Assembly (NCBI GenBank): GCA_024644085.1
Contig: JAHELS010000026.1
Location: 1,959-45,227, forward strand
Source of the DNA: Rhodopirellula sp.
Lineage (GTDB): Bacteria > Planctomycetota > Planctomycetia > Pirellulales > Pirellulaceae
Direction of reading: 5' to 3'
DNA length: 43,269 nt
Both the position numbers and the translations under genes were made by a program. Below, in pieces: positions 14,547-39,547 of this stretch. How positions within the stretch are numbered: the first letter of the stretch is position 1; every line of letters starts with the position of its first letter. The notes beneath the pieces are model-generated. The model was not told the DNA's origin, did not search any database, and saw only the letters and a program-made list of their open reading frames with translations.

Positions 14547-14559
14547 GAAGGGCCCAGGC

Positions 14560-15081
14560 GTGGTGAAAAGTAAATTCATCATCGACCTGTCGCTGCTCGA
14601 TTTTGATAACCCAATCGCGGATATTCAGGCGATTCGGGCCCTCAATCCTCAGCGACATGAAATGGAGCAGTTGACGGCGGTTCTTTACGAGGACCTCGAA
14701 CGCAACGCGTGCGCCGCCTACAAGGAAATCACGCACGATGAGTTCTGGGTGCGCGGCCACATGCCTGGCATGCCATTGATGCCGGGGGTGATGATGCTCG
14801 AAGCGGTCGCTCAATTGTCGAGCTACTTCACGCAAAAGCATGACCTGCTGGGCGCCGCAATGGTTGGCTTTGGCGGTGTCGACGAAGTCCGTTTTCGAGG
14901 CGTAGTGACCCCCGGAGACAAATTGGTGTTGATGGTCGAATTGGTCAAAACCCGCCGGGGACGAATGATCGTCGCCGCATTCCAAGGCATCGTCAACGGT
15001 AACATCGTTCTGGAAGGTACGCTGCGCGGAATCCCGATTCCAATCGAGGCCGTCGAGAAGCAAATCTCTCGGCGAAGTTGA
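14560..15081 (+). CDS. FabZ-like (3R)-hydroxyacyl-ACP dehydratase
   Basis: A 173-residue hot-dog-fold protein related to FabZ, which dehydrates 3-hydroxyacyl-ACP in fatty acid elongation. The active-site block reads W-V-R-G-H-M-P-G-M-P-L-M-P-G-V, with the catalytic His, and then M-L-E-A-V-A-Q with the catalytic Glu. There is no ATG in a suitable place. GTG at 14560 (or the adjacent GTG at 14563) is chosen because GAGAAGGG lies just before it and the family N terminus (I-I-D-L-S-L-L-D-F) follows. The roughly 50-residue extension before the hot-dog core is longer than in E. coli FabZ. The role may be general fatty-acid synthesis or a second, specialised dehydratase. Confidence 0.87.
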   Translation: MVKSKFIIDLSLLDFDNPIADIQAIRALNPQRHEMEQLTAVLYEDLERNACAAYKEITHDEFWVRGHMPGMPLMPGVMMLEAVAQLSSYFTQKHDLLGAAMVGFGGVDEVRFRGVVTPGDKLVLMVELVKTRRGRMIVAAFQGIVNGNIVLEGTLRGIPIPIEAVEKQISRRS

Positions 15082-15229
15082 TCATTCGATCAAATTGTTT
15101 ACACGGAACTTCCTGGATCGTTTGGGGTTCAAAGCCTCGATCAATCTTTCCCTAGGACTCTCAACCAAATTTCGGACATGAGCGCGCGGCGGCATTGAAA
15201 GTGCCGTCGTGGTCCGGCGGAGCTTATTG

Positions 15230-16651: not shown

Positions 16652-16706
16652 GTAGCGAACCAGCGGATATATTCGCAGTCGCTTCAACTCCAATTGCGAA
16701 CCGACT

Positions 16707-17447
16707 GTGAATACCGTTGTCCAAACTCAATCACCCTCTGAGCTCACGCCGGTCGAACCGCTCGACATTCTTGTCGTCGCTCCCCATCCGGACGACGCCG
16801 AGTTGGGCATGGGTGGCACGATTGCCAAAACGATCGCCGAAGGCTGGCGTGTCGGAATCCTCGACCTGACCACCGGGGAGCCGACCCCGCACGGTAGCGA
16901 GAAGATTCGGCGACAGGAAACGGATGCAGCGAGCGACGCATTGGGAGTAACTTGGCGTGGCAACGCAGGGTTGACCAATCGCGAACTCGAACACACGCTC
17001 GAAGCGCGCGGCTTGGTCGCCAGTTATTTTCGGATGTTGCGCCCGCGCTGGATTTTCGCGCCTTACTGGCAGGACGCACACCCGGACCACATTGCGGCAA
17101 CCGAGCTGATCGAAGCGGCGAGATTCTGGGCCAAGCTAAGCAAGACCCACATGCCGGGCGAGCGATTTCATCCGGAACGAGTCTATTACTACTTTTGCGT
17201 CCATCTTCGTTTGGCCGTCCAGCCCAGTTGGATCGTCGATATCAGCGACCATTGGGACCAGAAGCTGGCGTCGATCAAGGCTTACAAAAGTCAGTTCATC
17301 GAGGGACGACCCACCGAGCCGCCAACTTTTCTCGATCGGATCCGTGACGACGCGGCGTATTGGGGGCGATTGATTGACCGCCGCTACGGCGAGCCCTTCG
17401 CAACCCGCGAGCCGCTCGCACTCTCTTCGCTGCGCGATCTGTTTTGA
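16707..17447 (+). CDS. bshB1: PIG-L family deacetylase, BshB1-type
   Basis: A 246-residue zinc-dependent LmbE/PIG-L deacetylase. The zinc motif is A-P-H27-P-D-D-A-E, and the second site is D-A-H-P-D-H near residue 130. The later pattern (A-A-R-F-W-A-K-L-S-K-T, V-Y-Y-Y-F, V-D-I-S-D-H-W-D-Q-K, A-Y-K-S-Q-F) matches BshB1, which removes acetyl from GlcNAc-malate in bacillithiol synthesis. bshA and bshC are not in the window, so the pathway assignment rests on family likeness only. The start codon is GTG; the first 20 residues precede the fold. It is cytoplasmic and convergent with the retropepsin gene. Confidence 0.85.
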   Translation: MNTVVQTQSPSELTPVEPLDILVVAPHPDDAELGMGGTIAKTIAEGWRVGILDLTTGEPTPHGSEKIRRQETDAASDALGVTWRGNAGLTNRELEHTLEARGLVASYFRMLRPRWIFAPYWQDAHPDHIAATELIEAARFWAKLSKTHMPGERFHPERVYYYFCVHLRLAVQPSWIVDISDHWDQKLASIKAYKSQFIEGRPTEPPTFLDRIRDDAAYWGRLIDRRYGEPFATREPLALSSLRDLF

Positions 17448-17476
17448 GGCGTTGACAACGGGACATCGCGAGGTCA

Positions 17477-18604
17477 TCAATCCGTTTTGACACGCAACAA
17501 CGTCAAGGTGCTGTCCGCCGGATCGATTTCAAACTTGAAATTCCCGAGAAAGCTCATGCCGAGCAATGGTTCGGCGTCCGAAGCAACAGCATCGAGAACA
17601 GCGGCCTCAACATTCTCGACCTCGAACTGGCCAACTCGAACCTTTGGCAGCGTCACTCCACGTGCCGGAATCGTCCGTCCGTCGGCTAACACCAGCCGAA
17701 GTTCTCTCGCGTCAACCGAGACCACGATCCCAAGTTCCGCAGCTGTTTTGACCGGCAAACTGATCATCGTCGCACCGCTGTCAACGACCATTCGAGTCGT
17801 CTTCTTGCCAACCACCACATCAACGTACAACGACCCGCCAACCGTCTCCAACTTGATCGACTCGCTGAAGATCTCCTGCTCGATCCGTTGGATTCGTTTA
17901 TCAAGTGCCACCAGGATTGTGTCGGCGGTGACTTCCAGGGGTGTCTCGAAATTCGCGCTCATTACCTTGAGGGCGATTCTCAAGTTTTCATCCTCGAGCG
18001 ATTCCTGCAAAGCGTCTCGAGCCGACTTGTAATCACGACGGATCGCCAGCACGGTTTCAGCGTAAGCAGCTTCTTCATCGTTCAAAACTTTTCTTTTGGC
18101 CGCCAATTCCTCCTTTAACCTTTCACGCTCGCTCGTCAACGCTTTCATTTGGGCGTTGGTCGCGTTGAGCAGACCCACGATGCGATTGTTCGCGCTGACA
18201 TCGATGCCGGCGACTCTCGCCAGCTGCAGATTCAATTCGCCATACTGGGCATTGAGACGCTCGAGTTCCCGTCTGGCCGCGGCCAATCGATCGGAAACCT
18301 GTTGCCATTCCTGGGCGACCAGTCTCAGCTCTCGTTTTTCACGCGCCAAACCGGTGATCGCTCGCGAAATCTCGGACGTACCAGTTGATTGAATTGTTTT
18401 TCCGCTTCGCCGTAGTCCCGAATCAGCGAGAAACTTTTCAGCCTTTGCGACAACATCATCTGAATATTTTTCTGATTTTGGTTCCTGTGCCGTCGTGCGA
18501 TCCGTGATCAGCGATAGACTGAGCGACACGATCAGGCCCGCAGCGACGAAACGGACACAATCGAGCCGGCGCGCGGATTCAATTACTTGGTGGGAGAAGC
18601 CCAT
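17477..18604 (-). CDS. Exported coiled-coil protein with C-terminal retropepsin-like aspartic protease domain
   Basis: A 375-residue protein with an N-terminal signal or anchor helix (F-V-A-A-G-L-I-V-S-L-S-L-S-L-I), a long coiled coil at about residues 85-220 (for example A-R-R-E-L-E-R-L-N-A-Q-Y-G-E-L-N), and a C-terminal clan AA aspartic protease domain. The catalytic Asp is in M-V-V-D-S-G-A-T near residue 285, and the closing hydrophobic-G motif is L-L-G-M-S-F-L-G-N-F. Retropepsin-like domains act as dimers, and the coiled coil could promote this. The ATG at 18604 has GAAGG 9 bases upstream; it shares the palindrome CATG with the start of the divergent gene at 18603. Substrate unknown. Confidence 0.85.
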   Translation of the reverse strand: MGFSHQVIESARRLDCVRFVAAGLIVSLSLSLITDRTTAQEPKSEKYSDDVVAKAEKFLADSGLRRSGKTIQSTGTSEISRAITGLAREKRELRLVAQEWQQVSDRLAAARRELERLNAQYGELNLQLARVAGIDVSANNRIVGLLNATNAQMKALTSERERLKEELAAKRKVLNDEEAAYAETVLAIRRDYKSARDALQESLEDENLRIALKVMSANFETPLEVTADTILVALDKRIQRIEQEIFSESIKLETVGGSLYVDVVVGKKTTRMVVDSGATMISLPVKTAAELGIVVSVDARELRLVLADGRTIPARGVTLPKVRVGQFEVENVEAAVLDAVASDAEPLLGMSFLGNFKFEIDPADSTLTLLRVKTD

Positions 18605-19241
18605 GTTTGGCAACCTTCATCTGTACTGGGGTAGAGTCCCCAGTTTAGCAACTCGATCCTTGTTTGCCCTGAGCGTTTTTTTTCTGTCATTCGGTGGGCA
18701 ATCCGTTGTTGCCGAAGTCTCGACAACCGTACTCCGCCAACAGACCCGCGATCTGCTTCGTCACGAAGCCGTTACCGAGGACGAGCAGGCAAAGGATGCA
18801 GCGACCGCGGCTCTGTGTGACTTGTACGTTGTGCTGCGCAGTGACGATCGTTATGCCACCAGCGAAATGCTCAAGGGCGATGCCGCCAAGGTTCGCCGCC
18901 GGTTGATCAGTATCGCCGAGCGTCGCCAGCGACAGTTGAAGCGAGATGAAGTTCCCAAACCTAGCGACCTGGCGGCCGAAATCGACTCGGTGATCGCCGC
19001 CGCCCTTTCCCAGAACGGACCCGAGTTGAGCGATGCGGTGGGCGGCCAGGGAGGCGGCGCTCTGGGTGACAACGGTTGGCAACTTGTCGAACTGATCCAG
19101 CGTGTCGTGGCACCCGACTTCTGGGAGCCCGTTGGCGGCCCCGGCGCGATCCGTTACTTCGCGATGCGGCGAGTACTGGTCGTCCGCGCCACTTCGGATG
19201 TTCACGAACAGGTTCGCGATCTGTTGATGGCGTTGCGATAA
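18603..19241 (+). CDS. Secreted hypothetical protein
   Basis: A 212-residue exported protein, not recognised as a named family. GTGGGAG lies 6 bases before the ATG, and the signal peptide covers about residues 18-37 (S-L-F-A-L-S-V-F-F-L-S-F). The middle is helical and charged; a Gly-rich linker (G-G-Q-G-G-G-A-L-G) follows; the last 50 residues (V-V-A-P-D-F-W-E-P-V-G-G-P-G-A-I then T-S-D-V-H-E-Q-V-R-D-L-L) resemble a short secretin/STN-like C-terminal motif that recurs in planctomycete secreted proteins. Its start codon overlaps that of the divergent protease gene. It is convergent with the gene at 19286. Confidence 0.8.
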   Translation: MFGNLHLYWGRVPSLATRSLFALSVFFLSFGGQSVVAEVSTTVLRQQTRDLLRHEAVTEDEQAKDAATAALCDLYVVLRSDDRYATSEMLKGDAAKVRRRLISIAERRQRQLKRDEVPKPSDLAAEIDSVIAAALSQNGPELSDAVGGQGGGALGDNGWQLVELIQRVVAPDFWEPVGGPGAIRYFAMRRVLVVRATSDVHEQVRDLLMALR

Positions 19242-19285
19242 AGTCCTCGACGATCCTCCGCCCGACTCGAGTTTCCGCGGACAAT

Positions 19286-20569
19286 TCACGCGAGATGCGG
19301 TTCGGCCATCGTTTGTCTGAGCGCCTCGGTCATGCTCATCCCGACCAGAACTTTTTGACTGATCTTCGGGCAATAAACCGCGACCTGCTCGAACGCTTGT
19401 CCTTGAAGTGACAAGTTCAGCAGATCTTCGGCCGATAACGTCTCGCGGCCGGCACGCCGGGTCAACTGAAAACGCAAACCACCGATTCCTTCGTAGCTGC
19501 GGTAAACCACCTCCGTGCACACAAGACGATCGGCGCGAGTGAAGTCAAAGTCGAAATCGTAAGGTTTTCCAACGTGCGTACCTGCTCGCTCGATTGCCGA
19601 CTTGATCGCGATTGGGTCAAGCCTCGGTCGAATCAACGCGACCGCATCATTCCCAAACGGTGAATCCATCAATCGCTCGTGCACTCCATCCTTCAGCGAT
19701 TCAACCACACGATCACTGCCGACATACATGGCTGCATGAGGCCAGTACCCTGGCAAGAAGTAATTGGTCACTGCGTTGTCTTTGCGAGTGACGAACACAT
19801 CGCCGTCGCGAAGCAAACTCTGAAACTCCCGCGCAACTTCGTCGGGGATACAAGGTACGTGACTGGGCATCGTACTGATGTTGCTGACCAAACGTGATCC
19901 TAATTCCTGGATCGCGTAAACCATTCGCTCAACGCTCCCTTTGATCACACGATGATGCGCGTCATGCCCACGCTCGCCGAGTCGAGCCCTGATGTATCTG
20001 GCAGGCGTCACACGTGTCGCCTCAGCGAATCGGTCGATGACCTGCAAGACCGGCCCCAATCCTTCGTCCGACTGAGCCATCAAATCCAGGTCGCCGCGAC
20101 GCGCATCGAAGAACTCGTTCGCTTCCTTGATTTTTATCGCATTGGCCGGGTCGGTCAGCGACATCTGGACGGCATCAAAACTACCTTCTGCGATTCCGAA
20201 TGAATGGCATGACTCGTTCAGTTTACGACGCACCAAATCGTTTTCGGCAAACAGATTTCGCAGGCATCTTGCGGCATCGACAAGCACCAACGCCGCCGCG
20301 TAGGCAACCGCGAACTCTGCCAGATGCTCTTCCTTTGCTCGCCCAACGCGTCGACGAACGTTGTCGATCAATTCCAGAAGCGCCGCGCGTGATTTGTGGT
20401 AGGACACCCACAGATGCAGAACCTGGTCGTCCTCGCTGGGGACGAAATACCCCCGCTGGCGCGTTTCGAACGATTGTTGCAGCTGTTCGGCCGAGGTCCG
20501 CAACCGACGCATGTGATCAGCCAGGTCGACCACGGTTTGGACGGCGGAGGAGTCGAGTTTCTGCGTCAC
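19286..20569 (-). CDS. YiiX-like permuted papain-fold protein with long N-terminal helical region
   Basis: About 427 residues. The C-terminal third matches the YiiX/YebB-like permuted NlpC/P60 amidase fold: R-D-G-D-V-F-V-T-R, then the His block Y-W-P-H-A-A-M-Y-V-G, H-V-G-K-P-Y-D-F-D-F, and the Cys block R-L-V-C-T-E-V-V-Y-R-S-Y. Such enzymes cut amide or ester bonds in peptidoglycan, lipids or protein. The first 250 residues are helical, with no signal peptide seen. Start choice is uncertain: GTG at 20569 avoids overlap with pyrD, while ATG at 20653 would overlap it by 59 bases. The gene follows pyrD on the same strand and may be cotranscribed with it. Confidence 0.8.
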   Translation of the reverse strand: MTQKLDSSAVQTVVDLADHMRRLRTSAEQLQQSFETRQRGYFVPSEDDQVLHLWVSYHKSRAALLELIDNVRRRVGRAKEEHLAEFAVAYAAALVLVDAARCLRNLFAENDLVRRKLNESCHSFGIAEGSFDAVQMSLTDPANAIKIKEANEFFDARRGDLDLMAQSDEGLGPVLQVIDRFAEATRVTPARYIRARLGERGHDAHHRVIKGSVERMVYAIQELGSRLVSNISTMPSHVPCIPDEVAREFQSLLRDGDVFVTRKDNAVTNYFLPGYWPHAAMYVGSDRVVESLKDGVHERLMDSPFGNDAVALIRPRLDPIAIKSAIERAGTHVGKPYDFDFDFTRADRLVCTEVVYRSYEGIGGLRFQLTRRAGRETLSAEDLLNLSLQGQAFEQVAVYCPKISQKVLVGMSMTEALRQTMAEPHLA

Positions 20570-20594
20570 TGAATCACTCGCAAAAAAGGAATCG

Positions 20595-21503
20595 TCATTT
20601 AGTCTCCAGTGTTCCCACACACTGTGCAACCGATTCCATGCCGGTTTCCCCAACGGCGTCGGCTAACTGGTCGATCATTTTCATCGAGACTTGCGGATCG
20701 TAGTAATTCGCAGTGCCGATCTGCACGGCGCTGGCGCCGGTGACTAAAAACTGCATTACGTCGTCGATGTTTGCGATCCCGCCGATCCCGATGATCGGAA
20801 TATCGACGGCGGTGGCGACCTGGTGAACGCACCGCAGTGCAATCGGCTTGATCGCCGGACCACTCAGCCCTCCCATGCCGTTACCGAGCATCGGTTTGCG
20901 CCGTCGCCAATCGACGGCGATACCAAGAACCGTATTGATCAGGCAAACCGCATCGGCACCCCCATCGGCCGCGCCTCGGGCAATGTCGTCGATGCGCGTG
21001 ACGTTGGGCGTCAATTTGGCAAGGACCGGAACGTCGGTGCGTCGGCGCGTGGCATCGACGACCTTTCGACATGACTCGGCGTTGGTGCCGAAATCAATTC
21101 CTCCGCTGACGTTCGGACAGGAAAGGTTCAATTCGATCGCGGCAACACCTTCCTCGGCACCCACTCGCTCGGCCAACGAGACGAAGTCTTCTTCGGTCCG
21201 TCCTGCGACGCTGACCACCACGGCCGTTTCGATTTCTCGAAGGTAAGGCAGGTGATGCTCGAGAAAAGCGTCGACGCCGTCGTTGTCCAAACCGATCGCA
21301 TTCAACAAGCCGGCCGCCGTTTCGACGGTTCGCCATGGAGCATTCCCGATGCGCGGTTCGGCCGTGATCGTCTTTGGCAGCACGCCGCCCAACCGCGAGA
21401 GGTCGACGATCCTCTCCATTTCTCGTGCATACCCGAACGTTCCCGACGCAACCATGATCGGGTTTTTCAAATGCAATCGGCCAAGAGTGACTGAAAGGTC
21501 CAT
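20595..21503 (-). CDS. pyrD: Dihydroorotate dehydrogenase, class 1 (1B-like)
   Basis: A 302-residue FMN enzyme oxidising dihydroorotate to orotate in pyrimidine synthesis. It begins [16 protein letters not shown], with V-A-S-G-T-F-G-Y next. The catalytic base is Cys, in L-N-L-S-C129-P-N-V-S-G-G, which marks class 1 instead of class 2. FMN phosphate motifs I-I-G-I-G-G-I-A and [10 protein letters not shown] are near the C terminus. The 1B type would need a PyrK partner, which is not in this window. Cytoplasmic. A 34-bp tandem repeat separates it from coaB upstream. Confidence 0.96.
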
Positions 21504-25526: not shown

Positions 25527-25600
<74 letters not shown>

Positions 25601-26253
25601 CTTTTCCCTCTTCCAGATCGCCTTGGATCAAATCAGATCGCCCTTCTTTCAGGCTGCCTGAGATTCCCCACTTCTTAGCGGTGCGATCCGAACCCTTCTG
25701 AATCGTCGTCCACTGTGCATCCACTGGACTTCTCAGGAGCGACTCGCCTGGACATCGATGTTGGTCTGCGCCGTCGTACTTCTTCCGACAAGGAGCACTG
25801 CATGATCGACTTTGAAGATCTTGTTCCGGCCATGATTCACTCGGGCGGCTTCTTTCATCGCCGACCATGGAAGAAATGAAAGCCACGGTTCACCGAGCTA
25901 ATCAACGGGTGGCCGACTACAACTTTGAGGTCGTCAACGTCGAAACCGTCGTCTTGCCCAACATGCACAACACCGTTGAAGAGGGATCGCAAGACGCGAG
26001 CCTTCGCACATCCGGCGAGATGCAGTCGACGTGGCACCAATTCGTGCGTGTATGGTACAAGCGATAGTGCGTCACAAACACGTTGTGCCTCTTCGAGAAC
26101 ACCAACATGAAGGGCATCAAAAGCTCGGTGCGCACGCGTGGCCGCTTGCTCGGGCATCAACTGGGCGATCAGTTGCACCAACTGCCGCTGGCTGAAAGTA
26201 ACCTATCGAGATAAGCGACCACTTCACTGCAGTCATATCAAAAAGGATGGAGC
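25601..26253. other. Mostly gene-poor stretch after the tRNA
   Basis: About 650 bases between the tRNA and the DUF1353 gene. It holds one weak ORF (25867-26067, listed separately). No transposase, integrase or repeat of the tRNA 3' end was seen. A minus-strand frame at 26181-25855 is open but has no protein family I recognise. The stretch could be a decayed remnant of accessory DNA beside a tRNA, a common insertion place. Confidence 0.4.
25867..26067 (+). CDS. Possible small hypothetical protein
   Basis: A 66-codon ATG frame (a second ATG at 25879 is possible). An in-frame stop at 25813 rules out a longer product. The composition looks protein-like, with V-N-V-E-T-V-V-L-P-N, E-E-G-S-Q-D-A-S-L and W-H-Q-F-V-R-V-W-Y-K-R, the last being a plausible C-terminal beta-strand. 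No SD and no named family is recognised. It lies alone in a gene-poor region. Confidence 0.4.
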   Translation: MEEMKATVHRANQRVADYNFEVVNVETVVLPNMHNTVEEGSQDASLRTSGEMQSTWHQFVRVWYKR

Positions 26254-29388: not shown

Positions 29389-29855
29389 GTTCAGTTTGGG
29401 GATGGTCGGTGCGGCGAATCATCGCAGTGACGAAATTCTCGCTGTGCAAAAGTCGTGCGCAATCGAAGCGATTCGCTCCGGCAAGGCGATCAAAGCGTTC
29501 CCGATTCGGCGAATTATCGGGTAAAGACCCCGGGCCGACTCTTTCCGTGCTGCTACGCACAGATCCCGTGCCAATCTGCGCGCTGCATTGGAACCGCCCG
29601 GCAAAGAAAAGCTGAGAGTGAGGCGACGAATCGTGCTAGAATCGGGGGATCAATCGCGGCGTTTCGTTCATTTGCCGGCACGTTGCAAATACCCACCTTT
29701 GCTCCCCACCAAAACACTCCCACCTCAATCTCACGCAGGGATCCACAATCAGGACCACGCGTGTGTTCCATGCAATCGCTATCGGCACCAAACGTGCAAC
29801 GGTGCGAATGCAGTGTCATCCCTGCCAGGCATTCCGTATACGCGGGACTGAATCC
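29389..29855. other. Long intergenic stretch before the caspase locus
   Basis: About 470 bases without a gene I can support. At 29634-29642 the sequence TGCTAGAAT resembles an extended -10 element 214 bases before the ATG at 29856, but no matching -35 is seen. Short open frames here lack codon bias and family likeness. Confidence 0.4.
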
Positions 29856-31655
29856 ATGACCGTAAAACAAACCATGACGAAGGCCAATTCCAAGAGCCGT
29901 CGATCCAATCTCTGCGAGTATTTCATGCGGTATACACATTCCTGTTTGATCCTCTTCACGCTACCGCTGGCTCTCGGGGCGACGGGTTCTTGGAATGCGG
30001 TTGGCGAGGAAATCGTTGGCTCTCAAACCGACCTGGAACCGTTGGGAGCCGCGGCTCTGAAACTCGACGGCGACGAAATGGCGCGTTGGATTGAAGTTGA
30101 AGACCTGGATTCGTCGTCGCCGGGTCTGCACGGTGATGTCGTGGTGGCGACCTGGGCGGTTGCATCCGCTCAGAACCAGCCCGACGTCCTCAAGATCGCC
30201 CAGAGCCTGGCAGCGAGCGACGCGGCACTCCGCACCAGGACTGAGTCCCTGCGTGACGCATTCAAGAACTTGCGGGCACAACGGATCGAGATCGATCCGG
30301 GCCACGTTCTGCCTGACATGATTGTGATCACGAAGGAAGCGAGGCGAACAATGCTGGTCGCGGCGCTCCGTGGCGACACCGAGAGCGTTCGAGCGGCCCA
30401 AGCCTTCCTTGCCGAAGAGGACCTTGCCGAGGCCTTGAAAAAAGAACTGAGTCTGTTTGCGAGCGGTTGCCGGGAACTCTCCGTACAAATGAAGGATTCA
30501 GCGCTTGCCGAGGCAATTGACCAGGCCGCGCATGCCCGACAAAAACGGGAGTCGTTGCAGAGATCGCAGTTGCAGTGGCTTGCTGATTTCCGCACCGACC
30601 CGGACGGGGCGGAGGTGCCGCGGGGCGGCGAAGCAAACTCCTACACGGTAATGGTTGAGAAAGAGAAAGCGCGTGCCGCATTGATCACGGCCTACACCCA
30701 ACTGTACACCGCCTACGTGAACGGCCAGAAGACACGGGTCGAATGCATCAAGGGCATGCAGGAAGTTTCATCCGGCGCGTTGGATCTAAAGGAGAAACGT
30801 GCCACGATGTACTGGACGTTGAAGAAGCTCCGTAGTGAGCACTTGAAGGAACGCCGTGAGAAGTCGGTCGCCTTCAGTCAGAAACGCAGCCAGGAGCAAA
30901 GAGAGCGAAGCGCCTCAGATTTCTCCGCCACGTGGCCAACGGTGTTCCAGCACCGAGATCTGCGCGAGCATGCCGATTCGTTGCTTGCCAACCTCGCCGA
31001 TTACTCGCCGGGCAATTCCGGACCGTTATCGGTCGCCTACACCAGATGTGCCATGGACATCCGCGCCTTGAACAAGCGTCTGATGTCTGATCTGGACGGA
31101 ATCACGCTGGCACAGCGCGCCGCATTGAGGTCGTATCTGCGCAAGTTGGAAGTCGAGATCAAACGCGAGTATTCGTCCAGCGGTTACATCGCGTCGCTTA
31201 ACACGCCGCACCGGTTGGATACACGATCGCTGGCTGCCAAAAGCCCGCCGTCGGCCGCACGCTCGAGCGATTTTGGGCCGGCCGTGCTGACACTTGACGG
31301 AGACGACACTGATGTGGCCAGCTACGCGCTTTACCGCTCGATTCTCATCTCGCTCGTGAAGGCGGGCAAGAAAGGCGACAAGGAACGATTGAGGGCGTTG
31401 GCTTCGGTCATTCAAGAAACGGATTTGTTGAAGAAGGAGCACAAGCAAAGCCTTAACGCCATCGGCTCGAAACTGTACTCGGGCACTTTGAATCTGGACA
31501 GGGCAATCTTTGTCGAAGATCCCGAGTCAGTCCTGGCAACGATCGCCGGCCTTTCCGGAGATGAAACCGGTGCGCTCCTCGAGGTACCGGACGGGTATCG
31601 AGAGAAGGCGTTTGAAATCCTGATTGCGACGGCCTTTGATGATTCAGGCGTCTGA
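29856..31655 (+). CDS. Large exported helical protein upstream of caspase genes
   Basis: A 599-residue protein of no recognised family. The ATG at 29856 begins a long polar leader before a hydrophobic signal segment (C-L-I-L-F-T-L-P-L-A-L-G-A). The body is strongly helical and charged. A helical unit of about 40 residues seems to recur: T-W-A-V-A-S-A-Q-N-Q-P-D-V-L-K-I-A, M-L-V-A-A-L-R-G-D-T-E-S-V-R-A-A and L-I-S-L-V-K-A-G-K-K-G-D-K-E-R-L, each followed by a second helix with a central Asp. L-D-G-D occurs near both ends (L-K-L-D-G-D-E and L-T-L-D-G-D-D). The last 17 bases overlap the caspase gene at 31639, so the two are co-transcribed. A partner, substrate or scaffold role is an inference from context. 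Confidence 0.75.
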   Translation: MTVKQTMTKANSKSRRSNLCEYFMRYTHSCLILFTLPLALGATGSWNAVGEEIVGSQTDLEPLGAAALKLDGDEMARWIEVEDLDSSSPGLHGDVVVATWAVASAQNQPDVLKIAQSLAASDAALRTRTESLRDAFKNLRAQRIEIDPGHVLPDMIVITKEARRTMLVAALRGDTESVRAAQAFLAEEDLAEALKKELSLFASGCRELSVQMKDSALAEAIDQAAHARQKRESLQRSQLQWLADFRTDPDGAEVPRGGEANSYTVMVEKEKARAALITAYTQLYTAYVNGQKTRVECIKGMQEVSSGALDLKEKRATMYWTLKKLRSEHLKERREKSVAFSQKRSQEQRERSASDFSATWPTVFQHRDLREHADSLLANLADYSPGNSGPLSVAYTRCAMDIRALNKRLMSDLDGITLAQRAALRSYLRKLEVEIKREYSSSGYIASLNTPHRLDTRSLAAKSPPSAARSSDFGPAVLTLDGDDTDVASYALYRSILISLVKAGKKGDKERLRALASVIQETDLLKKEHKQSLNAIGSKLYSGTLNLDRAIFVEDPESVLATIAGLSGDETGALLEVPDGYREKAFEILIATAFDDSGV

Positions 31656-33807
31656 ACAATCCGATACCGGCGCGCACCGGGTTCCTGCGGAGTTCGCAAA
31701 TCGAACCCGATGGCTGCTCGTATGCGTGATCTTGATTGCGATGGCGACGACACGTCTGTGCGCCGAGCGGCCTCGGCAACATGCGTTGTTGATCGGTTGC
31801 ACCGAATACCGCAACCTTGATCCGTGGTTGCAACTCAAGGGAGGCCTCAACGACGTGCAACTCATCAGGCAGTTGTTGGTCGATCGGTTCGACTTTGACC
31901 CCAATGCGGACGACATTGTCACGCTCGCCGCCGGGCGCGGAGACCGTTACGCTCCGACCCGCACGAATATCGAACGCGAATTCCGGCGGCTCGGTAAAAC
32001 CGTCGCAGCGAGCGAAAGGGTCGTGATCCTGGTGGCCGGACACGGCAGCCAGCAACCCGATGATGATCCTGGCAATCCGCGCGATATCGAAACCGATGGT
32101 CTGGACGAAATCTTTCTGCCATCTGACGTCGAAGGATTTGACGGTAAGACCGGTTCGGTAAGCGGAGCGATCGTTGACGATGAGTTTCGGCATTGGCTTT
32201 CTGCCATCGTTGCTCGAGACGCGTTCGTCTGGCTGATCATGGACACTTGTCACAGCGGCTCGGGTGTTCGAGGAAGTGGCGCCGAAATCTCGCGTCACGT
32301 ACCACCACGAGTTCTGATTCCCGATTCAGCGCTGGCGGCCGCGAAATCAGCCACGATTAAGAAACACGGCCACTTGGCGCCTGATTCACTGTTCGACGGA
32401 CCCGGCGGAGTCGTAGCCATCTACGCGGCGCAGCCGCACGAGCTGACACCCGAAAAGAAGCTGCCGGTCGGAGCTTCTCCGGATGCTCGCAAGTACCACG
32501 GCCTGCTGACGTACACGATCGGCGAGATTCTGACCGGTTCTCGACGCGGCCTGACCTACAACGAATTGGTCCAGGCGGTTCAGACTCGGTACATCACCAT
32601 GGGTCGCCGTGCTCCGACGCCGCTGGTCGAAGGCACCCATCGTGATCATCTCGTGCTTGGCCGCAAATCATTTCCCGACCGGTCACGGATCCTGTTGCGG
32701 CGAAGCAGAATCCCGACCGGCAATCTGTCTGTCAATGTCGGCGCCATCCACACTCTGACCGCGGGATCAATCCTGGCAGTCCATCCGCCCTCGGGTTCCA
32801 ACGCTGACGATCCCGATGCGTTGCTCGGCCATGTCAAGGTGACACGAGTTGAAATGACGGAGGCCGTCGTCGAACCTTGCAAATACGGGGGTGTGGCGCG
32901 ACCCGAGATCAGCGCGTTACCGAACCGCGCTCGATGTGACATCGTTTTTCGGCATGCAGGGATCGAGCGAATGCGTGTTGCGATTGACGTGGATGACCAG
33001 GCTGAAAACGACATCCCCGCTGCGTTCAACAACTTGGCGTCGGATCTTCGCACGCGCACATCTAATCGGATCGTGGTAATCGATGACGCTGGCGATGCCG
33101 AATGGTTGGTACGGTGCGGCGAACGCGACATTCAGATCATTCCGGCGGAAGGAGTATCTCGACGGGATCTCGCCGGGCACCGGTCTTCCCTCGCGCCCAT
33201 TGCAACAAATGGCGACTCCGCCCGGCGCGTGATCCAGGTCCTGGAACGGATCGCGCATGCACGTGCGTTGTTGCGGCTCGCGGCCTTCGCTTCCGATTCA
33301 TCCAGAAAACCGGACTTCGGGTTTGCGCTGAATGTGACCGATCCGCAACACCGGCCTCTCGAGTGGAAGTCATCCGGGTACACCGTGCGCGACGGCCAGC
33401 ACGTGCAGGTCGAAATGCACAACACGGCGGGCCACAGCATCGACGTGACGCTGCTGTACGTCGACAGCGGTTTCGGGATCACCTGCCTGTACCCCGCAAT
33501 CGGCGAGATCAATCGTATCGCAGCGGCCGAAAAACAAATCATTGAATTGGACATCACGGCAACGACTACCGGCATCGAAAGCCTCCTTGCGATCGCCGTG
33601 AAAGCCGATCTGCAACCGGTCGACTTCAGCATACTGGCACAGCCGTCGCTACCGCTGACGCGAGACGGGGGCAGCGCGTTGCTCGAATCGCCGCTCGGCC
33701 GACTTTGCCGCACGGCTATGTACGGCCGCGGTAAAGTTCGCGGAATCGAAAGCGCACCGAATCAAAACTACGACATTCGGTTGATTACATGGAGAGTCGA
33801 CCCTTGA
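31639..33807 (+). CDS. Exported caspase-fold (clan CD) protein
   Basis: A 722-residue metacaspase-like protein. After a signal or anchor helix (residues 25-41) the p20-like domain starts at H-A-L-L-I-G-C-T-E-Y. The catalytic dyad is complete: H135 in V-A-G-H-G-S-Q and C204 in M-D-T-C-H-S-G. An acidic stretch (D-D-D-P-G-N-P-R-D) follows the His, consistent with a substrate-pocket or activation loop. After about residue 330 comes a second region with beta-rich segments (N-V-G-A-I-H-T-L-T-A-G-S-I-L-A) of no recognised family. The start overlaps the previous gene by 17 bases. Proteolysis after Arg or Lys would be usual for metacaspases; its target and control are unknown. The next gene is 260 bases on. 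Confidence 0.9.
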   Translation: MIQASEQSDTGAHRVPAEFANRTRWLLVCVILIAMATTRLCAERPRQHALLIGCTEYRNLDPWLQLKGGLNDVQLIRQLLVDRFDFDPNADDIVTLAAGRGDRYAPTRTNIEREFRRLGKTVAASERVVILVAGHGSQQPDDDPGNPRDIETDGLDEIFLPSDVEGFDGKTGSVSGAIVDDEFRHWLSAIVARDAFVWLIMDTCHSGSGVRGSGAEISRHVPPRVLIPDSALAAAKSATIKKHGHLAPDSLFDGPGGVVAIYAAQPHELTPEKKLPVGASPDARKYHGLLTYTIGEILTGSRRGLTYNELVQAVQTRYITMGRRAPTPLVEGTHRDHLVLGRKSFPDRSRILLRRSRIPTGNLSVNVGAIHTLTAGSILAVHPPSGSNADDPDALLGHVKVTRVEMTEAVVEPCKYGGVARPEISALPNRARCDIVFRHAGIERMRVAIDVDDQAENDIPAAFNNLASDLRTRTSNRIVVIDDAGDAEWLVRCGERDIQIIPAEGVSRRDLAGHRSSLAPIATNGDSARRVIQVLERIAHARALLRLAAFASDSSRKPDFGFALNVTDPQHRPLEWKSSGYTVRDGQHVQVEMHNTAGHSIDVTLLYVDSGFGITCLYPAIGEINRIAAAEKQIIELDITATTTGIESLLAIAVKADLQPVDFSILAQPSLPLTRDGGSALLESPLGRLCRTAMYGRGKVRGIESAPNQNYDIRLITWRVDP

Positions 33808-34067
33808 TTTCATATTTCGCCTGGACACGATCGGTTTGATGACGCGCGTTCGCACGCGACTGTCACACACCGTGTTGGCACGCGAGTTATATTGTTAGTC
33901 CCTCCTACATTGTCCCACCTCGAGCGCATGTCACCACGAAGCTGCCACCGGTTGACGCATCCGCATGCTGACCAGAGACCTCGCTGGTTTGTTTCGGGGT
34001 GCACCGTGCGCGACAGCGGTGACACGATTATCGAAAGCCGCGCGACGAACAATGCGGAGCAGCGGTG

Positions 34068-37000
34068 ATGGACAAGTACCATGTCTTGAACGAGGAACTG
34101 TGCAAGCGATTGCCGCTACCGCTCGCTCAACTTTACGAGCGCGCGCACAGTGCCAAGTCCGAGATGGAGCGGCATCATATCGCTTACTATCTTTGGGAAG
34201 CCGGCATCAAGCTGATGGCTTCCGCCGTGGTGCTCAGGTACGCGATGCAGAGCCCGCAACAGCAGGAACACGCTGTTCTTTTACAGCGATTGGTAAAACC
34301 GCAAACCTCGCACTGGTGTGAAATTCTACGTGCTCTGCTGCCGATTACTGCTCGCGGCGACGCGTTTCTGAATCGCAACCATAAGATGCTCGCGGGTAAG
34401 CTGGGGGCGGATTTATCCCATTGCTCGCAGCTGGACATGGCGCTGCGAACCGAAGCAAACGGCGTTGACGGACCCGATGGCACGCTTCTGCATCTGTTTG
34501 AGCGTGTTGCCGGCTATCGCGAAGCAGTATTCGCGCCCGATCTGTTTGCCGGCGGATCGAACAGAATGTATCGATACATGGGCGACTTGTTGCTGTCGGC
34601 CGCAGGGGAATGGCTGCCGCGAATCGATGTGCTGGCTGGGCGACAGCTGGCGTTCATCAACAATGTCACGACCGAGGATACGGATCGGACGCGGGTAGAC
34701 CGAATCGAACTGACCGGGACACATCCCCTGATGGCACGTCCCTGGGAATTCTCTGGTTCACCGTCGCGTCTACCGCGCGCCGGCACCCTGTGCGTGCATC
34801 CTGCGGCGACGCCGCGCAGCGACGATGAAACCGTTCGTCAACTACAGTCGTTGCATCCGCTCGTGCTCTTTGATGCAGAGGCGGATCACGTCTTCTTTCG
34901 CGGCAGCACCGCCAACGGCGACCAGCCAGAATACCTGTGTTATACGACTGGCCAGACGTTAGATCCGGATCCGCTGGGGGAGGACTTCAATGATCTGATG
35001 AAGCAGCTTCTGCGGATTCCGATCGATGTCAAATCGGATGCTTGGTCAAATCGAATCGAGAATGGCAAATCACCGCGCGACACAACGTTGCAAGGTCAAG
35101 GGCGCGAGAACCACCGATTGGGCGAGTTCAATCTCCTGACCCGAATGGGCCGCGGAGGGATTGGAAAGGTCTTCCGGGCATGGCAACCATCGCTTGGCAA
35201 GCAGGTCGCGATCAAGTGTCTTTCCAAGTCAGAAAACCCGGGGGCCGTGGCACGTTGTGCAAGTGAGATCCTGGCGTTGGCACGCGTCGAGCACCCGAAC
35301 CTGGTCAGGGTTTTTGCCTCCGGGGACGAGGAAGACCACTGGTATTTTGCAATGGAACTTGTCGACGGTGTCGAGCTTGGCGCCGTCGGCGAACGATTTT
35401 GCAGCGACGGCGTCGAACCGGCGATGATCGATCACAAAGCGTGGAACGACAAATTCAGGCAGACCCTCCGCGAAGCAAGGCTTACGGAACGTCCATTGGA
35501 TGACGAATTTGACGTAACACAATTGCTTGACCGCAGCCCCAGCGCCGATACACGATCGGCAAGCCACGCCACGCTGGATTACGTCCGGCACATTGTCCGC
35601 TTGTTGCTTCCCGTCGTCCGGGCTGCGGAGTCGCTGCATGAATCGGGCGTCGTGCACGGCGAGATTCACCCGGGCAACGTGATGGTCACGTCCGACGGCC
35701 AGAGCGCTGTTCTGATGGATCCGGGAATGCCACGGATGAAGCAAGTGGGAAGTGAAGCAGCGCCGCCGAATCGAACATCTCTCGAAACACTTCGGTACGC
35801 AAGCCCCGAGCAGGTTCTTTCGGCCGGCGCCGTGGACCACCGCAGCGATATCTATGGCTTGGGCGCGACGCTGTGGGAATCGTTAACGCTGCGGCCGCTG
35901 TTCGCATCGTGCGACGAAACCGACCCGTTGGAAACGATGCGTTGCATTGAGTACGAGGATCCCGAGTCGATTCGTGACTTGAACCCGCGCGTCCCAAAGG
36001 ACCTTGCTGCGATCATCAACAAGTGCCTGGAAAAAGCACCTCATCGCCGCTACCAATCGGTGGCGGAACTGGGCGACGAATTGTCGCGATTCCTCAATTA
36101 CGAACCGGTATTCGCCCGACCGCTGGGAAGCTTATCGAGGTCGATGCGCGGGATCCTCCGGCATCCGGTCGGCTCGACACTGGCCCTCGTCACGGTGTTG
36201 TCAATTGTCACATTGGGTGCACTCTTTCTGAATCGTCGCAATCTTGCCCGGACGAAGCAGGATCGCTACCAGCTTGAGCTGGCCAATCAACGTGCCGACG
36301 AGGATTTCGAGCGCGCGGTGACGGCGCTCGACGGTGTGTTCGAACTTCTGACCGAAGGAAACCTGAAGCGGCGAGCCGACCTCGAGCCGCTGCGCCAACA
36401 GTTACTCGACTACTACGCCGACCAAGTTTCGCACCACGAAGAAACACGCCACGTCAGTGAGTCGCTGGGACAAGTGCACCAGCGAATCGCCCGGATCATG
36501 GTTTCGATGGGGAATAACGACGCCGACGACCATTTTGACGCAGCGCTGGAGATCTACGAGCAAATGTCCCGCGGCGGATCCGATTCGCGATCGCTGGCCG
36601 CTGCGGCGGGCACTATTCGAATCGAGCGCGGACTCGCATTGATGGGACAACGTGACTATGACAACGCGGAAAAGGACTTTGCCGCAGCACGCGATACCTT
36701 CGCCGAATTGTCCGAGTCCAATCCCGGTAACCTCGATTACTGGCAGCAGCTTGCCGAGGCACACCATAATCTGGGGCGCATTGGTGAGTCGCGGGGGAAC
36801 CGCAACGATTCGCTCGACGCCTACCAGGAAAGCCTCGAGATCCGACGCGACAAGTTGATCGCGAAATCGGACAACCCGCGTTACCTGGGCGATTACGCCC
36901 GCAGTCACGCGAGCATCGGCAATCTGCAACTCAAACAAGGCGACTACGCCGGGGCACTGAGATCCTACGAGGAATCTGTCGCGCTGCGCAAGGAAATCGT

Positions 37001-38522
37001 CGACGTGGATCCGACGGACCATGGAGCCCGACTTCAACTGTCACGCAGCTATAGGGCCCTGGGTCAGCTTCGACAATTGCAAAGTGGTCTGGCCAACGCG
37101 ATCCAGTTGTATGAACACGCAGTTGCCGAAGCTCGGCGGCTCGTCGACGAGGAACCGCTGATCAACGATTACCGGGCTGACCTCGCAAGGTTCAGCAACG
37201 AATTGGTCGAATTGTTGCTCGACGAATCCGATCGCACCGGAGATACCGAGCTATCGCGGAAAGCGCAACGGCACGTTGAAGAGACGGCTTACTTGCATGC
37301 CGAGATCGCGCTTCGAAATCCCGAGGATGCCGCTGCCATCGCGTCGCTTGCCCAAAGCCATTTGAATACGGCCCGCTTGCTGGCCGACCAACCGCAGCTG
37401 GCGCTTTCCGAGTTGGACGAATCGCGATTGCTGTTCGCACGAATCGAACAACCCAGTGCGATGGACCTGTTCCAAATGGGCGTCATCGAGGCGCTGACCG
37501 CCGAACTGAGGCAACAGTCCGAACCCGGCGGCGAAACCGATATCCAACCATACGTTGACGCCGCGGTAGAACTGCTCTCGCGCGCGGTGAAAAGCAACCG
37601 CTATACGACACTGCCGCGAATCCAGCGATGCCGAGTACTGGACGACATTCGCAACCGGCCCGGGTTCCGCGACCTGGTCGCAACCCAGCCTCGCGGTGCC
37701 GAGCGCCGTGCCGTTGACGCCCGCCAAGTCGATTCGCTCTATGCCCTCGCCGTCGGCGTCTCGGACTATGTTGACCCAAAGCTCGACTTGAGCTATCCGG
37801 ATGATGATGCCCGCTCGCTTTCGGAAGTCTATCGCGCCCAAAAATCGGTTTTCGATCGAAAAATCAATGTTCATCAGTTGATTGACGAGAAAGCGACACG
37901 CCGAAACATCCTGAACACGATCAATGAAATGCGAACCGCGGCGCAATCCGACGGGCCATGCTTGTTTGTGATTTCACTTTCGGGTCACGGTCGACTCCAT
38001 GAAGGAGGCGACTACTATTTCCTGCCCCATGATTTCGAGGATGACGCGGCAATCACCGCAACTGGTGTCTCCTGGGACGACCTTCTGAAGGAATTTGAGT
38101 TGATCCCGGGCGTGGTGATCGTCGTCCTCGACACGTGCCACAGCGGCGCGGTCGACGCGCCGATGCGCCGACAAATGGAATTGGCCGTCGCGCATTTCAC
38201 TGAACGGGTCGAGCGAACGACGTCGCGCGGTGTCGCCGTGCTGGCCTCATCACTGAGCGGCGAGGCGTCGCGCGAAAAGCCGCAGTGGGGCCACGGCGCT
38301 CTGTCGCTGGCCATTCTCGAAGCGCTGAACGGCGAACACCTGTTCCATGAAACGACCAAAACCGCGATCCCGCAGATCAGCGATGAAAACACGATCACGC
38401 TGTATCAATTGATCGATTACGCGGTCCGGCGTGTCGACGAACTGACCGACCGGCGCCAACACGTGGCGGTCCGCCATCCGAACATGAGCCCGCTCGATAT
38501 CACGCTCGGCGTCGCCGATTGA
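34068..38522 (+). CDS. Kinase-like/TPR/caspase membrane fusion protein
   Basis: A 1484-residue protein. GGAG lies 9 bases before the ATG. Residues 1-340: helical region of unknown function (L-P-L-P-L-A-Q-L-Y-E-R-A-H). About 350-690: Ser/Thr-kinase-like domain with G-loop G-R-G-G-I-G, K in V-A-I-K near 380 and an alphaC Glu, but the catalytic loop near 528 reads H-G-E-I-H-P-G-N instead of H-R-D-x-K-x-x-N and D-F-G is D-P-G; the late motifs S-P-E-Q and S-D-I-Y-G-L-G are normal. About 700-723: one membrane helix. About 770-1090: TPR-like repeats. About 1224-1480: caspase-like domain, His in L-S-G-H-G near 1304 and Cys in L-D-T-C-H-S-G near 1356. A cytosolic kinase-like part with an exported TPR/caspase part is likely, by analogy to PknB-type proteins. 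Confidence 0.92.
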   Translation: MDKYHVLNEELCKRLPLPLAQLYERAHSAKSEMERHHIAYYLWEAGIKLMASAVVLRYAMQSPQQQEHAVLLQRLVKPQTSHWCEILRALLPITARGDAFLNRNHKMLAGKLGADLSHCSQLDMALRTEANGVDGPDGTLLHLFERVAGYREAVFAPDLFAGGSNRMYRYMGDLLLSAAGEWLPRIDVLAGRQLAFINNVTTEDTDRTRVDRIELTGTHPLMARPWEFSGSPSRLPRAGTLCVHPAATPRSDDETVRQLQSLHPLVLFDAEADHVFFRGSTANGDQPEYLCYTTGQTLDPDPLGEDFNDLMKQLLRIPIDVKSDAWSNRIENGKSPRDTTLQGQGRENHRLGEFNLLTRMGRGGIGKVFRAWQPSLGKQVAIKCLSKSENPGAVARCASEILALARVEHPNLVRVFASGDEEDHWYFAMELVDGVELGAVGERFCSDGVEPAMIDHKAWNDKFRQTLREARLTERPLDDEFDVTQLLDRSPSADTRSASHATLDYVRHIVRLLLPVVRAAESLHESGVVHGEIHPGNVMVTSDGQSAVLMDPGMPRMKQVGSEAAPPNRTSLETLRYASPEQVLSAGAVDHRSDIYGLGATLWESLTLRPLFASCDETDPLETMRCIEYEDPESIRDLNPRVPKDLAAIINKCLEKAPHRRYQSVAELGDELSRFLNYEPVFARPLGSLSRSMRGILRHPVGSTLALVTVLSIVTLGALFLNRRNLARTKQDRYQLELANQRADEDFERAVTALDGVFELLTEGNLKRRADLEPLRQQLLDYYADQVSHHEETRHVSESLGQVHQRIARIMVSMGNNDADDHFDAALEIYEQMSRGGSDSRSLAAAAGTIRIERGLALMGQRDYDNAEKDFAAARDTFAELSESNPGNLDYWQQLAEAHHNLGRIGESRGNRNDSLDAYQESLEIRRDKLIAKSDNPRYLGDYARSHASIGNLQLKQGDYAGALRSYEESVALRKEIVDVDPTDHGARLQLSRSYRALGQLRQLQSGLANAIQLYEHAVAEARRLVDEEPLINDYRADLARFSNELVELLLDESDRTGDTELSRKAQRHVEETAYLHAEIALRNPEDAAAIASLAQSHLNTARLLADQPQLALSELDESRLLFARIEQPSAMDLFQMGVIEALTAELRQQSEPGGETDIQPYVDAAVELLSRAVKSNRYTTLPRIQRCRVLDDIRNRPGFRDLVATQPRGAERRAVDARQVDSLYALAVGVSDYVDPKLDLSYPDDDARSLSEVYRAQKSVFDRKINVHQLIDEKATRRNILNTINEMRTAAQSDGPCLFVISLSGHGRLHEGGDYYFLPHDFEDDAAITATGVSWDDLLKEFELIPGVVIVVLDTCHSGAVDAPMRRQMELAVAHFTERVERTTSRGVAVLASSLSGEASREKPQWGHGALSLAILEALNGEHLFHETTKTAIPQISDENTITLYQLIDYAVRRVDELTDRRQHVAVRHPNMSPLDITLGVAD

Positions 38523-38543: not shown

Positions 38544-39455
38544 TCATTCGCCTTTGGCGACTTCGTACTCGAACTCAGCGAGTTGAGGCAAGTGATCGCT
38601 TAGTGCAAACGAAGCGGGGTCCGCTGTGTTGGTGCGGAATGCACCCTCGAACAGCGGCCGTGATTCGACGACTTGCTTTGCAATTGTCCCGGCTGCCATG
38701 ACGTAATCAATTCGCCACTGAGGTTCGTCCGACTTTATCGTCGGTCCCTCTCCCTTCCCGACCTTTGCGAACGTATCTGTCCATCCAGCCCTGAGCCACA
38801 TCCCATATTCTTCTGTGTCCGGGCCGTGATTGAGATCACCAATGAGAAGCATCGAGCGATCTGCATCGAGGTCGGCCTTCATCGATTCCAACATCGCAGG
38901 AATTTCCCGCAGACGAATTCCTGGATCTGCGCCGGGATAGAGGTGAGCCGAGTGCACGATCAACGGACCAGCACGGGGAAGCTTGATCGTTGCCCGTCCC
39001 CAATGCCGAGTGAACAAGTCTTCGGGCCGCTGGCCCCCGACCAGCGGTGCGTTCATCGGATCTTCGATTTCATACCGGCTGAGCAATGCGCCGGGCCAGT
39101 TGCCACCGCTGGGAAAGAACACGTAGTTCATCTCAAGTCGCTTGGCGATCTGCTTTACCACCGCTTCATCGGGTGCCTCGGAAAAGTTGATGATGTCGGG
39201 ATCGTGGAGCGCCAACTCGTTCGCGAAACGATCCGGCATCTGCCCTTTTGCCGTCGCTGTTTTCGCCATCGCGCGATCCTTCGGCCAACCAGTGCAGGCA
39301 TAAACGTTGTAGGCGATCACGCGCAGATATCTCGGCTCGGACTCGGCCGCAACCGATCGTTTCGCGCCGAACGCTCCGAGCGCGATGCCACCGATCATGG
39401 CTCGCTGCAAGACGTTTCGACGAGTAAGCCCATCGCTCAAAGATGATCGCTTCAT
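38544..39455 (-). CDS. Tat-exported endonuclease/exonuclease/phosphatase-family protein
   Basis: A 303-residue EEP-fold hydrolase. The ATG at 39455, with AGGAATCAGGAA upstream, opens a twin-arginine signal (L-T-R-R-N-V-L-Q-R, then a Gly/Ala-rich helix). EEP motifs in order: V-I-A-Y-N-V-Y, the metal Glu in N-F-S-E-A, H-S-A-H-L-Y-P-G, G-D-L-N-H-G-P-D and the final S-D-H-L-P. Family members cleave nucleic acids, phosphoinositides or sphingomyelin; the exported form suggests a phosphodiesterase acting outside the cytoplasm. It is convergent with the kinase-caspase gene (21 bases between stops). Confidence 0.9.
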   Translation of the reverse strand: MKRSSLSDGLTRRNVLQRAMIGGIALGAFGAKRSVAAESEPRYLRVIAYNVYACTGWPKDRAMAKTATAKGQMPDRFANELALHDPDIINFSEAPDEAVVKQIAKRLEMNYVFFPSGGNWPGALLSRYEIEDPMNAPLVGGQRPEDLFTRHWGRATIKLPRAGPLIVHSAHLYPGADPGIRLREIPAMLESMKADLDADRSMLLIGDLNHGPDTEEYGMWLRAGWTDTFAKVGKGEGPTIKSDEPQWRIDYVMAAGTIAKQVVESRPLFEGAFRTNTADPASFALSDHLPQLAEFEYEVAKGE

Positions 39456-39547
39456 GTTCCTGATTCCTTTGGCTGTTTCTCGATTCTTTCCACAAGTTCT
39501 ATCGGGGCGAACCCGAAAGACGCCAACCACGAGTGATCATTGATTCA

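Follow-up and report, generated by a model that had tools for sequence, protein, structure and literature searches.

In SAVED-CHAT systems, a CHAT protease and a second caspase act in sequence. The SAVED-CHAT protease is described from type III CRISPR (PMC11417357), and Craspase combines Cas7-11 with the TPR-CHAT protein Csx29, the substrate Csx30 and CASP-sigma; for Csx29 and Csx30, both activation gated by the TPR region and a substrate from the same system are given there as established (PMC10028731). The nearest described membrane-linked caspase module is the EACC1-caspase system (PMC7159879). A survey from 2012 also found more than one caspase gene in 20 of 217 predicted operons, and its list places such multi-metacaspase operons only in Alphaproteobacteria, Bacteroidetes, Cyanobacteria and Deltaproteobacteria (PMC3501461). 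Here we analyse three adjacent genes (g1, g2 and g3) in a 43,269-nt stretch of DNA from Rhodopirellula sp., referred to below as the window, whose source genome is a 6.9-Mb draft in 468 contigs. Judged from sequence, the composition and association of a recurrent paired-caspase module with predicted export are confirmed, and a relay mechanism is plausible, with cleavage, order of action and role inferred. No description of this module was recognised in searches of the open-licence PMC literature.

The locus resembles each of these systems in part. In common with the EACC1 system it has a two-gene, membrane-linked arrangement in which a constant caspase is combined with variable partner domains and a small partner gene stands at the 5′ end (PMC7159879); here, however, the 5′ gene encodes a predicted exported helical protein, the caspase itself appears to be exported, and the second caspase-fold protein is the product of a separate, swappable gene. 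The EACC1-associated caspase model NF047832 is not reached by g2 (14.7 of 140 bits) or g3 (57 of 140 bits), and g1 shows neither a hydropathy peak at threshold, as the single transmembrane (TM) segment of the EACC1 5′ protein would lead one to expect, nor an NCBIfam match, although the presence of an EACC1 model in that library was unchecked. As in Craspase, a TPR region may gate a caspase-fold protease whose substrate may be encoded in the same system, and genes for extracytoplasmic function (ECF) sigma factors lie near some g2 loci. Craspase is RNA-guided, whereas the components here look exported; moreover g3 carries a C14 domain and has no CHAT match by Pfam, although some relatives have TPR-CHAT proteins, and no Cas7-11 effector was found among the window open reading frames (ORFs) scanned, which were part of the total. 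The likeness to Csx29 and Csx30 is one of analogy, not membership. SAVED-CHAT is driven by cyclic oligoadenylates, and no SAVED domain was found in g1-g3 (Pfam, NCBIfam). The multi-metacaspase operons share the presence of several caspase genes in one predicted operon, and some of their caspases have N-terminal helices; the operon and architecture sections of that survey mention no kinase fusion or constant exported partner (PMC3501461).

Composition of the locus

ORF calling recovered g1, g2 and g3 in a row on the plus strand, the three consecutive genes reported in a preliminary description of this DNA. Codon usage marks all three as coding, since the score of g1, which lay outside the training set, is similar to the scores of g2 and g3, which lay inside it, and the 134-residue ORF upstream of g1 scores below zero. 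To this the sequence adds predicted export signals on g1 and g2, a predicted TM segment between the kinase and the TPR-caspase half of g3, intact dyad motifs, and a grouping and swapping of parts in related genomes.

Read from ATG 31639, g2 encodes 722 residues (727 from the alternative TTG at 31624) and overlaps g1 by exactly the 17 bases first reported. It matches Peptidase_C14 (PF00656) with an expectation value (E) of 1.3e-13 (51.6 bits against a cut-off of 21.4), matches metacaspase structures, and carries GHG at residues 134-136 and DTCHSG at residues 202-207. It had been called a membrane-associated caspase-fold protein; the fold holds, and its single hydrophobic segment, at the N-terminus, makes 'exported' the better term. 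The structure model of g2 is poor (mean predicted local distance difference test score, pLDDT, 37.5), and its C-terminal region is therefore left without a fold assignment.

After a gap of 260 bases follows g3, which from ATG 34068 is the 1484-residue kinase-like/TPR/caspase fusion it was taken to be: Pfam recognises Pkinase (PF00069; 9.8e-30, 104.3 bits against a cut-off of 31.7), TPR and Peptidase_C14 (E 1.3e-10, 41.8 bits against 21.4), and GHG and DTCHSG are kept, so that the claim of an intact His and Cys applies to both caspase domains. By Pfam score and by these residues, g2 and g3 both belong to peptidase family C14, and proteolysis is predicted for them. In a hydropathy scan of g3, the stretch that separates kinase from TPR gave a strong TM peak, and a further peak within the caspase core was marginal (1.61, with the threshold at 1.6). 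The kinase motifs are partly non-canonical, with HGE for HRD and DPG for DFG: compared with an active Ser/Thr kinase, g3 has the fold above cut-off and lacks the HRD Asp and DFG. Throughout, L numbers denote fetched genomic stretches and G numbers genomes. The g3 orthologue in L151 is full-length (42% over 1525 columns), and its kinase has HRD and DLG. Kinase motifs are degenerate in three of the four kinase-caspase fusions (window, L065 and L152), and a rule that caspase fusions carry a degenerate kinase was dropped because L151 keeps HRD. In all four fusions, a TM peak separates the kinase from the caspase.

The open frame of g1 spans 29763-31655. Its ATG at 29856 would give the 599-residue exported helical protein of the preliminary description, in which the helical and exported character stands and the length is probably overstated, as a start at 29925 (576 residues) is more likely. 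This preference follows from three observations: the codon-usage score rises at 29925 from about 0 to 0.206 per codon, a signal-peptide-like start (MRYTHSCLILFTLPLALG) lies at 29925, and residues 1-57 of the 599-residue model have pLDDT below 50. Pfam, NCBIfam and PADLOC assign g1 to no family, and a PDB search returned no sequence relative. An AlphaFold2 model from four sequences (mean pLDDT 73.2, predicted template modelling score 0.58) is almost wholly helical, with long helices and helical hairpins. No convincing fold relative emerged, the best Foldseek E being 0.25 in the PDB and 0.079 among viral models, and VIA-align Z did not exceed 7.1 over ~80 residues, a level that is common for helical models. 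A check of g1 for the gasdermin fold gave no Pfam match and a model that is almost wholly helical (mean pLDDT 73).

Recurrence of the genes and exchange of partners

With a nine-row g2 profile, matches at 1e-10 were obtained in 76 of 296 genomes of the order, many over the caspase part only, and matches at 1e-60 in 17 of 392 genomes of the phylum. Stretches of ~15-20 kb were fetched around members that match most of the profile, and 33 loci were counted: 31 with a C-terminal match at 1e-15, together with L109 and L110, added by hand on account of g1. L070 and L117 (C-terminal match weaker than 1e-15) and L046-L050 (partial first hits) were left out of the count, and 12 of 21 distant places matching only part of the profile were left out of the fetched loci. 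L151 and L152, located through the caspase of g3, stand outside the 33; L045 and L053, whose g2 proteins are 95% identical, were both counted. For comparison we used 17 other C14 genes taken from partial matches to the g2 profile, whose caspases are hence somewhat g2-like.

A caspase-fold gene lies directly downstream on the same strand at 18 of the 33 g2 loci (4/17 of the other C14 genes), is adjacent at 23 (6/17) and is at most three genes away at 27 (7/17). Among 73 ORFs of at least 150 residues from five loci fetched for weak g1-like matches, none has a caspase-fold neighbour. At L044 the downstream TPR-CHAT gene (Pfam 3.2e-16), which runs off the contig end, is unscored by the local model, and including it raises the downstream count to 19/33. 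If L109, L110 and the window, itself selected because of its pair, are left out, the counts are 15/30 downstream, 20/30 adjacent and 24/30 within three genes. Thus g2 is found near caspase-fold genes far more often than background ORFs are; relative to other caspase genes, the excess is moderate. Dyad motifs are kept in 33/33 g2 proteins and in 20/22 partners (L044, cut by the contig end, has neither motif and L068 the Cys motif only); the 2012 survey gives an intact dyad for 64% of planctomycete caspase homologues (PMC3501461). At L045 and L053, four caspase-fold genes are clustered (CHAT, exported C14, CHAT and C14, the last with an FHA domain in L045), and at L046:10968-14768 a fusion of SLOG cluster2 and CHAT, possibly a nucleotide-sensing caspase, adjoins a caspase gene.

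The spread of g1 is much narrower. A first search for relatives found no homologue in 59 other genomes, and a single-sequence search of the contig collection none either; a five-row alignment led to three loci. In L055 a g1 homologue (39% identity by alignment) adjoins a g2 homologue. A two-row g1 profile matched 16 of 241 genomes of the family at E ≤0.001, near-full-length in five (the window's own, G258, Planctomycetes bacterium K23_9 (G243), Roseimaritima sediminicola JC651 (G814, Pirellulaceae) and Rhodopirellula sallentina SM41 (G810)) at E of 1.5e-94 or better; the other 11 matches are weak and partial (E 7.1e-6 to 5.7e-4). In a sample of 294 genomes of the phylum, the profile matched the window's own genome only, and among the 22 genus genomes listed near-full-length g1 is again confined to it, with a weak partial match in G021.

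The suggestion that these genes belong together is borne out, and they are neighbours elsewhere too: in four of the five g1 genomes (window, L055, L109 and L110) g1, an exported C14 gene and a large TPR-caspase-fold gene follow one another on one strand, and g2 neighbours a kinase-TPR-C14 gene in the window, L151, L152 and L065. Finer details of the arrangement vary. With longest ORFs, g1 and C14 are separated by 2 bases in L055 and 46 in L109, and in L110 by a gene for a 377-residue exported protein (another TPR-CHAT gene lies upstream of g1), so the 17-base overlap is not conserved; nor is the third gene of constant type, being C14 or CHAT, with or without a kinase (kinase-TPR-C14 in the window, TPR-CHAT by Pfam in L055, L109 and L110).

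Four weak g1 matches correspond to small proteins of 213-263 residues (E ~1e-6; L113:9385-10026, L112:9500-10228, L114:9643-10434 and L116:9530-10186). Their similarity is confined to a middle stretch of g1 (95.6% by hhalign over 170 columns). The stretches examined around them contain no caspase-fold gene, and these proteins were excluded from the g1 count. In L113 the next gene encodes an MscS-type channel with a BON domain. None of the ORFs listed for L115, also a weak candidate, matched.

Across the g2 loci the partner varies. It is a kinase-TPR-C14 protein in four loci (window, L151, L152 and L065), a C14 protein of ~900-1210 residues in eight (L041, L042, L043, L062, L063, L066, L068 and L069) and a CHAT protein in nine (L044, L045, L053, L055, L058, L061, L064, L109 and L110). 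On a tree built from 35 g2 proteins, those of the window and L055 are sisters (100/100) with different partners, whereas the g2 of L151, which precedes the g3 orthologue, falls in another clade. Kinase-C14 partners require at least three changes on this tree, the exact number being unsure given its long end branches, and g1 occurs with two different g2 clades. The pairing of g2 with a caspase-fold partner thus appears to survive exchange of the partner; because different genes refill the same slots, the association is better explained by joint function than by inheritance of a single block.

Other exported helical families occur near g2: UPS (seven loci), INS (eight proteins in five loci) and UP2 (two loci). 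INS is found at L044, L060, L062, L069 and L110, near CHAT or C14 genes and in some cases in tandem, and a fragment lies at L056:1-264. Profile-profile comparison gave 83% for INS against UPS and 53% over 59 columns for INS against g1, and the INS profile reaches the g1 of L055 at 7.5e-5 and the UPS of L068 at 1.7e-4; UP2 showed no link to g1, UPS or INS. It is possible, on these scores, that g1, INS and UPS form one diverging superfamily. A single family of g1 and UPS was rejected, as direct comparison shows no link and only the INS bridge remains.

Coordinates and surroundings

Positions of the three genes and their parts are collected below.

Features of g1, g2 and g3, numbered from the first letter of the window
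Feature	Position	Strand	Basis
g1, predicted exported, almost wholly helical protein, 576 aa	29925..31655	+	ORF, codon usage, model, homologues
g2, predicted exported caspase-fold protein, 722 aa	31639..33807	+	ORF, Pfam
g2 N-terminal hydrophobic segment (signal peptide or anchor)	31714..31764	+	hydropathy
g2 Peptidase_C14; His codon 32041-32043, Cys codon 32248-32250	31774..32589	+	Pfam, motifs
g2 C-terminal region, conserved across the g2 family	32641..33804	+	no Pfam family above cut-off
g3, N-domain-kinase-TM-TPR-C14 fusion, 1484 aa	34068..38522	+	ORF, Pfam, L151 orthologue
g3 N-terminal domain, ~333 residues, common to L051, L052 and L151 kinases	34068..35066	+	sequence comparison
g3 kinase-like domain	35133..36056	+	Pfam, motif inspection
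g3 kinase-like motifs: Gly loop 35148-35171 and VAIK 35205-35216 (both kept), catalytic loop HGEIHPGN 35655-35678		+	
g3 predicted transmembrane segment between kinase and TPR	36174..36230	+	hydropathy
g3 TPR region	36618..37010	+	Pfam
g3 Peptidase_C14; His codon 37986-37988, Cys codon 38136-38138	37740..38330	+	Pfam, motifs

The window's own genome has six C14 places, two of which are g2 and g3, and two CHAT matches, one above cut-off and the other overlapping a C14 place; a search with the g3 caspase added one place, on contig C60. Convergent with g3 lies a gene for a protein of the exonuclease/endonuclease/phosphatase family (38544-39530, minus strand), with relatives in four of 21 other genus genomes. 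An empty insertion site was sought in four genus stretches around this neighbour (one of them, L169, only 3.7 kb), and no convincing flanking gene in common was found, the comparisons yielding nothing beyond a single match of 22 residues and 24-27% matches from three distant ORFs that are paralogous; the insertion site is therefore not definable from these four stretches. Three window ORFs (162-1889, minus; 5898-7277, plus; 8855-10768, minus) look like mutual paralogues, because all match the same L040 relative and one stretch of L166. Protease-like genes are grouped at 13098-20653: a Peptidase MA-like gene (13098-14288, plus, below cut-off), a trypsin (15209-16651, plus), an aspartyl protease (17477-18613, minus) and a C92 amidase (19286-20653, minus). 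A tRNA-Arg gene (anticodon acg) lies at 25527-25601 on the plus strand, ~4.3 kb upstream of g1.

A possible relay in the envelope

We tentatively favour, as a possibility short of a probable one, a modular proteolytic relay located in the envelope, in which the TPR-caspase partner activates the exported caspase and the helical protein is its regulator or substrate. In such a relay g3 would cross the membrane: its N-terminal and kinase-like domains would face the cytoplasm, and the half with TPRs and caspase would lie on the outer side, near g2 and g1. The TPR part would sense a state of the envelope, or the kinase-like part would relay one from inside, and this would switch on the g3 caspase, by analogy with the action of the Csx29 TPR region on CHAT. 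The g3 caspase would then activate or recruit g2, the dedicated exported caspase. The matching regulator would be g1, from a fast-diverging family of exported helical proteins: in the likeliest case g1 would be a substrate and its cleavage the output, and failing that it would act as an inhibitor or scaffold. Among relatives, the sensor half would have been exchanged (TPR-CHAT, C14 of ~900-1210 residues, or kinase-TM-TPR-C14) while the exported caspase stays.

An extracytoplasmic position of the caspase domains is supported by hydrophobic segments at the N-terminus of 30/35 g2 proteins and 16/18 stand-alone partners, against 191/424 background ORFs of at least 300 residues, as read from a hydropathy scan of the longest ORFs; by eye, signal-peptide-like starts are also present in the g2 proteins of L044 and L061 and in the partners of L044 and L068. 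The location is read from that scan only, which, with several other points, weighs against the relay. Other planctomycete C14 genes cluster too, and six of the 33 g2 loci lack any caspase-fold gene up to three genes away. In comparison with the other C14 genes, Fisher's p for adjacency is 0.033 with 33 loci but 0.066 with 30, and for downstream position 0.070 and 0.12; within three genes it stays clear (0.009 and 0.011). The C14 proteins of L109 and L110 match the model of the g2 C-terminal region not at all or weakly (5e-8), and are therefore g2-type mainly by their caspase part. In R. sallentina SM41 (L111), g1 occurs without a caspase-fold gene in the stretch examined, and no full-length g2 was found elsewhere in that draft genome. 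An exported helical protein (G1, UPS, INS or UP2) lies within six ORFs of 17/35 g2 genes, against 0/17 at other C14 loci (10/28 once the seven seed loci are excluded), but some circularity enters here, UPS, INS and UP2 having themselves been defined from g2 loci; g1 is free of it, its search having spanned 241 genomes regardless of neighbours. Direct profile comparison of g1 with UPS gave no link (probability 0.2).

ECF sigma factors were considered as a further component. Among non-canonical ECF groups, ECF54 is listed with CHAT neighbours, and ECF59, 61, 62 and 217 as phosphorylation-regulated with planctomycete examples (PMC8999054). Divergent ECF and Ser/Thr kinase genes do stand beside the exported caspase in L042, L043, L062, L066 and L068, but no ECF gene was found in the window with a local profile, and such genes are no closer to g2 than to other C14 genes (ECF at 9/35 g2 loci and 3/17 others, kinases at 14/35 and 6/17), which rules them out as a g2-specific part of the module.

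The explanation that otherwise survives best, though we regard it as unlikely, is that these are ordinary exported proteases: caspase genes would cluster generally, g1 and g2 would be co-transcribed for an unrelated housekeeping function in the envelope, and g3 would act alone. The caspase neighbours of other C14 genes (6/17 adjacent) and the moderate size of the g2 excess fit this, as do the 260 bases between g2 and g3 and the planctomycete kinases that share the g3 N-domain and bear other C-terminal domains (WD40 repeats in L051, an FGE-sulfatase domain in L052). It is harder to reconcile with the overlap of the longest g2 and g3 ORFs in L151, with the order of g1, C14 and partner in four of five genomes, and with a pairing that survives partner exchange.

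Less likely still, in our view, is a membrane-attached system that resembles Craspase or SAVED-CHAT and serves defence or cell death: g3 would detect infection, and the caspases would then kill the cell or dampen it. When g2 and g3 were scanned, a PADLOC caspase model matched g2 (2.4e-9) and defence-kinase models matched too, but the latter reflect the kinase fold in general, and four other window ORFs scanned gave no PADLOC match. The patchy spread (near-full-length g1 in 5/241 family genomes and one of 22 genus genomes) and the swapping of pieces recall conflict systems, against which stand the export signals on g1, g2 and most partners and the absence of any NTPase, SAVED or CARF family at cut-off in g1-g3 (Pfam, NCBIfam). 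That g1 is instead a chaperone-like inhibitor or scaffold of g2 and not its substrate is likewise quite doubtful: it directly precedes g2, as inhibitor and chaperone genes often do, its model has the long helices and hairpins that might suit such a role and it sits with two g2 clades, but no fold relative of known inhibitor function was found for it.

Returning to the proteolytic relay, a more specific and somewhat unlikely version would be an extracytoplasmic initiator-executioner relay in planctomycetes. An exchangeable TPR-caspase protein (C14 or CHAT, membrane-spanning or secreted) would be the initiator, the exported C14 protein the executioner and the fast-evolving exported helical protein a guarded target, and in some initiators a cytoplasmic kinase-like part would couple the relay to the cell interior. 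The bacterial caspase systems available for comparison are tied to CRISPR effectors or to sensors of the single-TM or NTPase type. If the relay exists, it would place a caspase cascade in the envelope and provide a naturally occurring series of interchangeable initiators for a single constant caspase, with g1-type proteins as ready candidate substrates, and it would make testable the question of whether two neighbouring bacterial caspases act in sequence.

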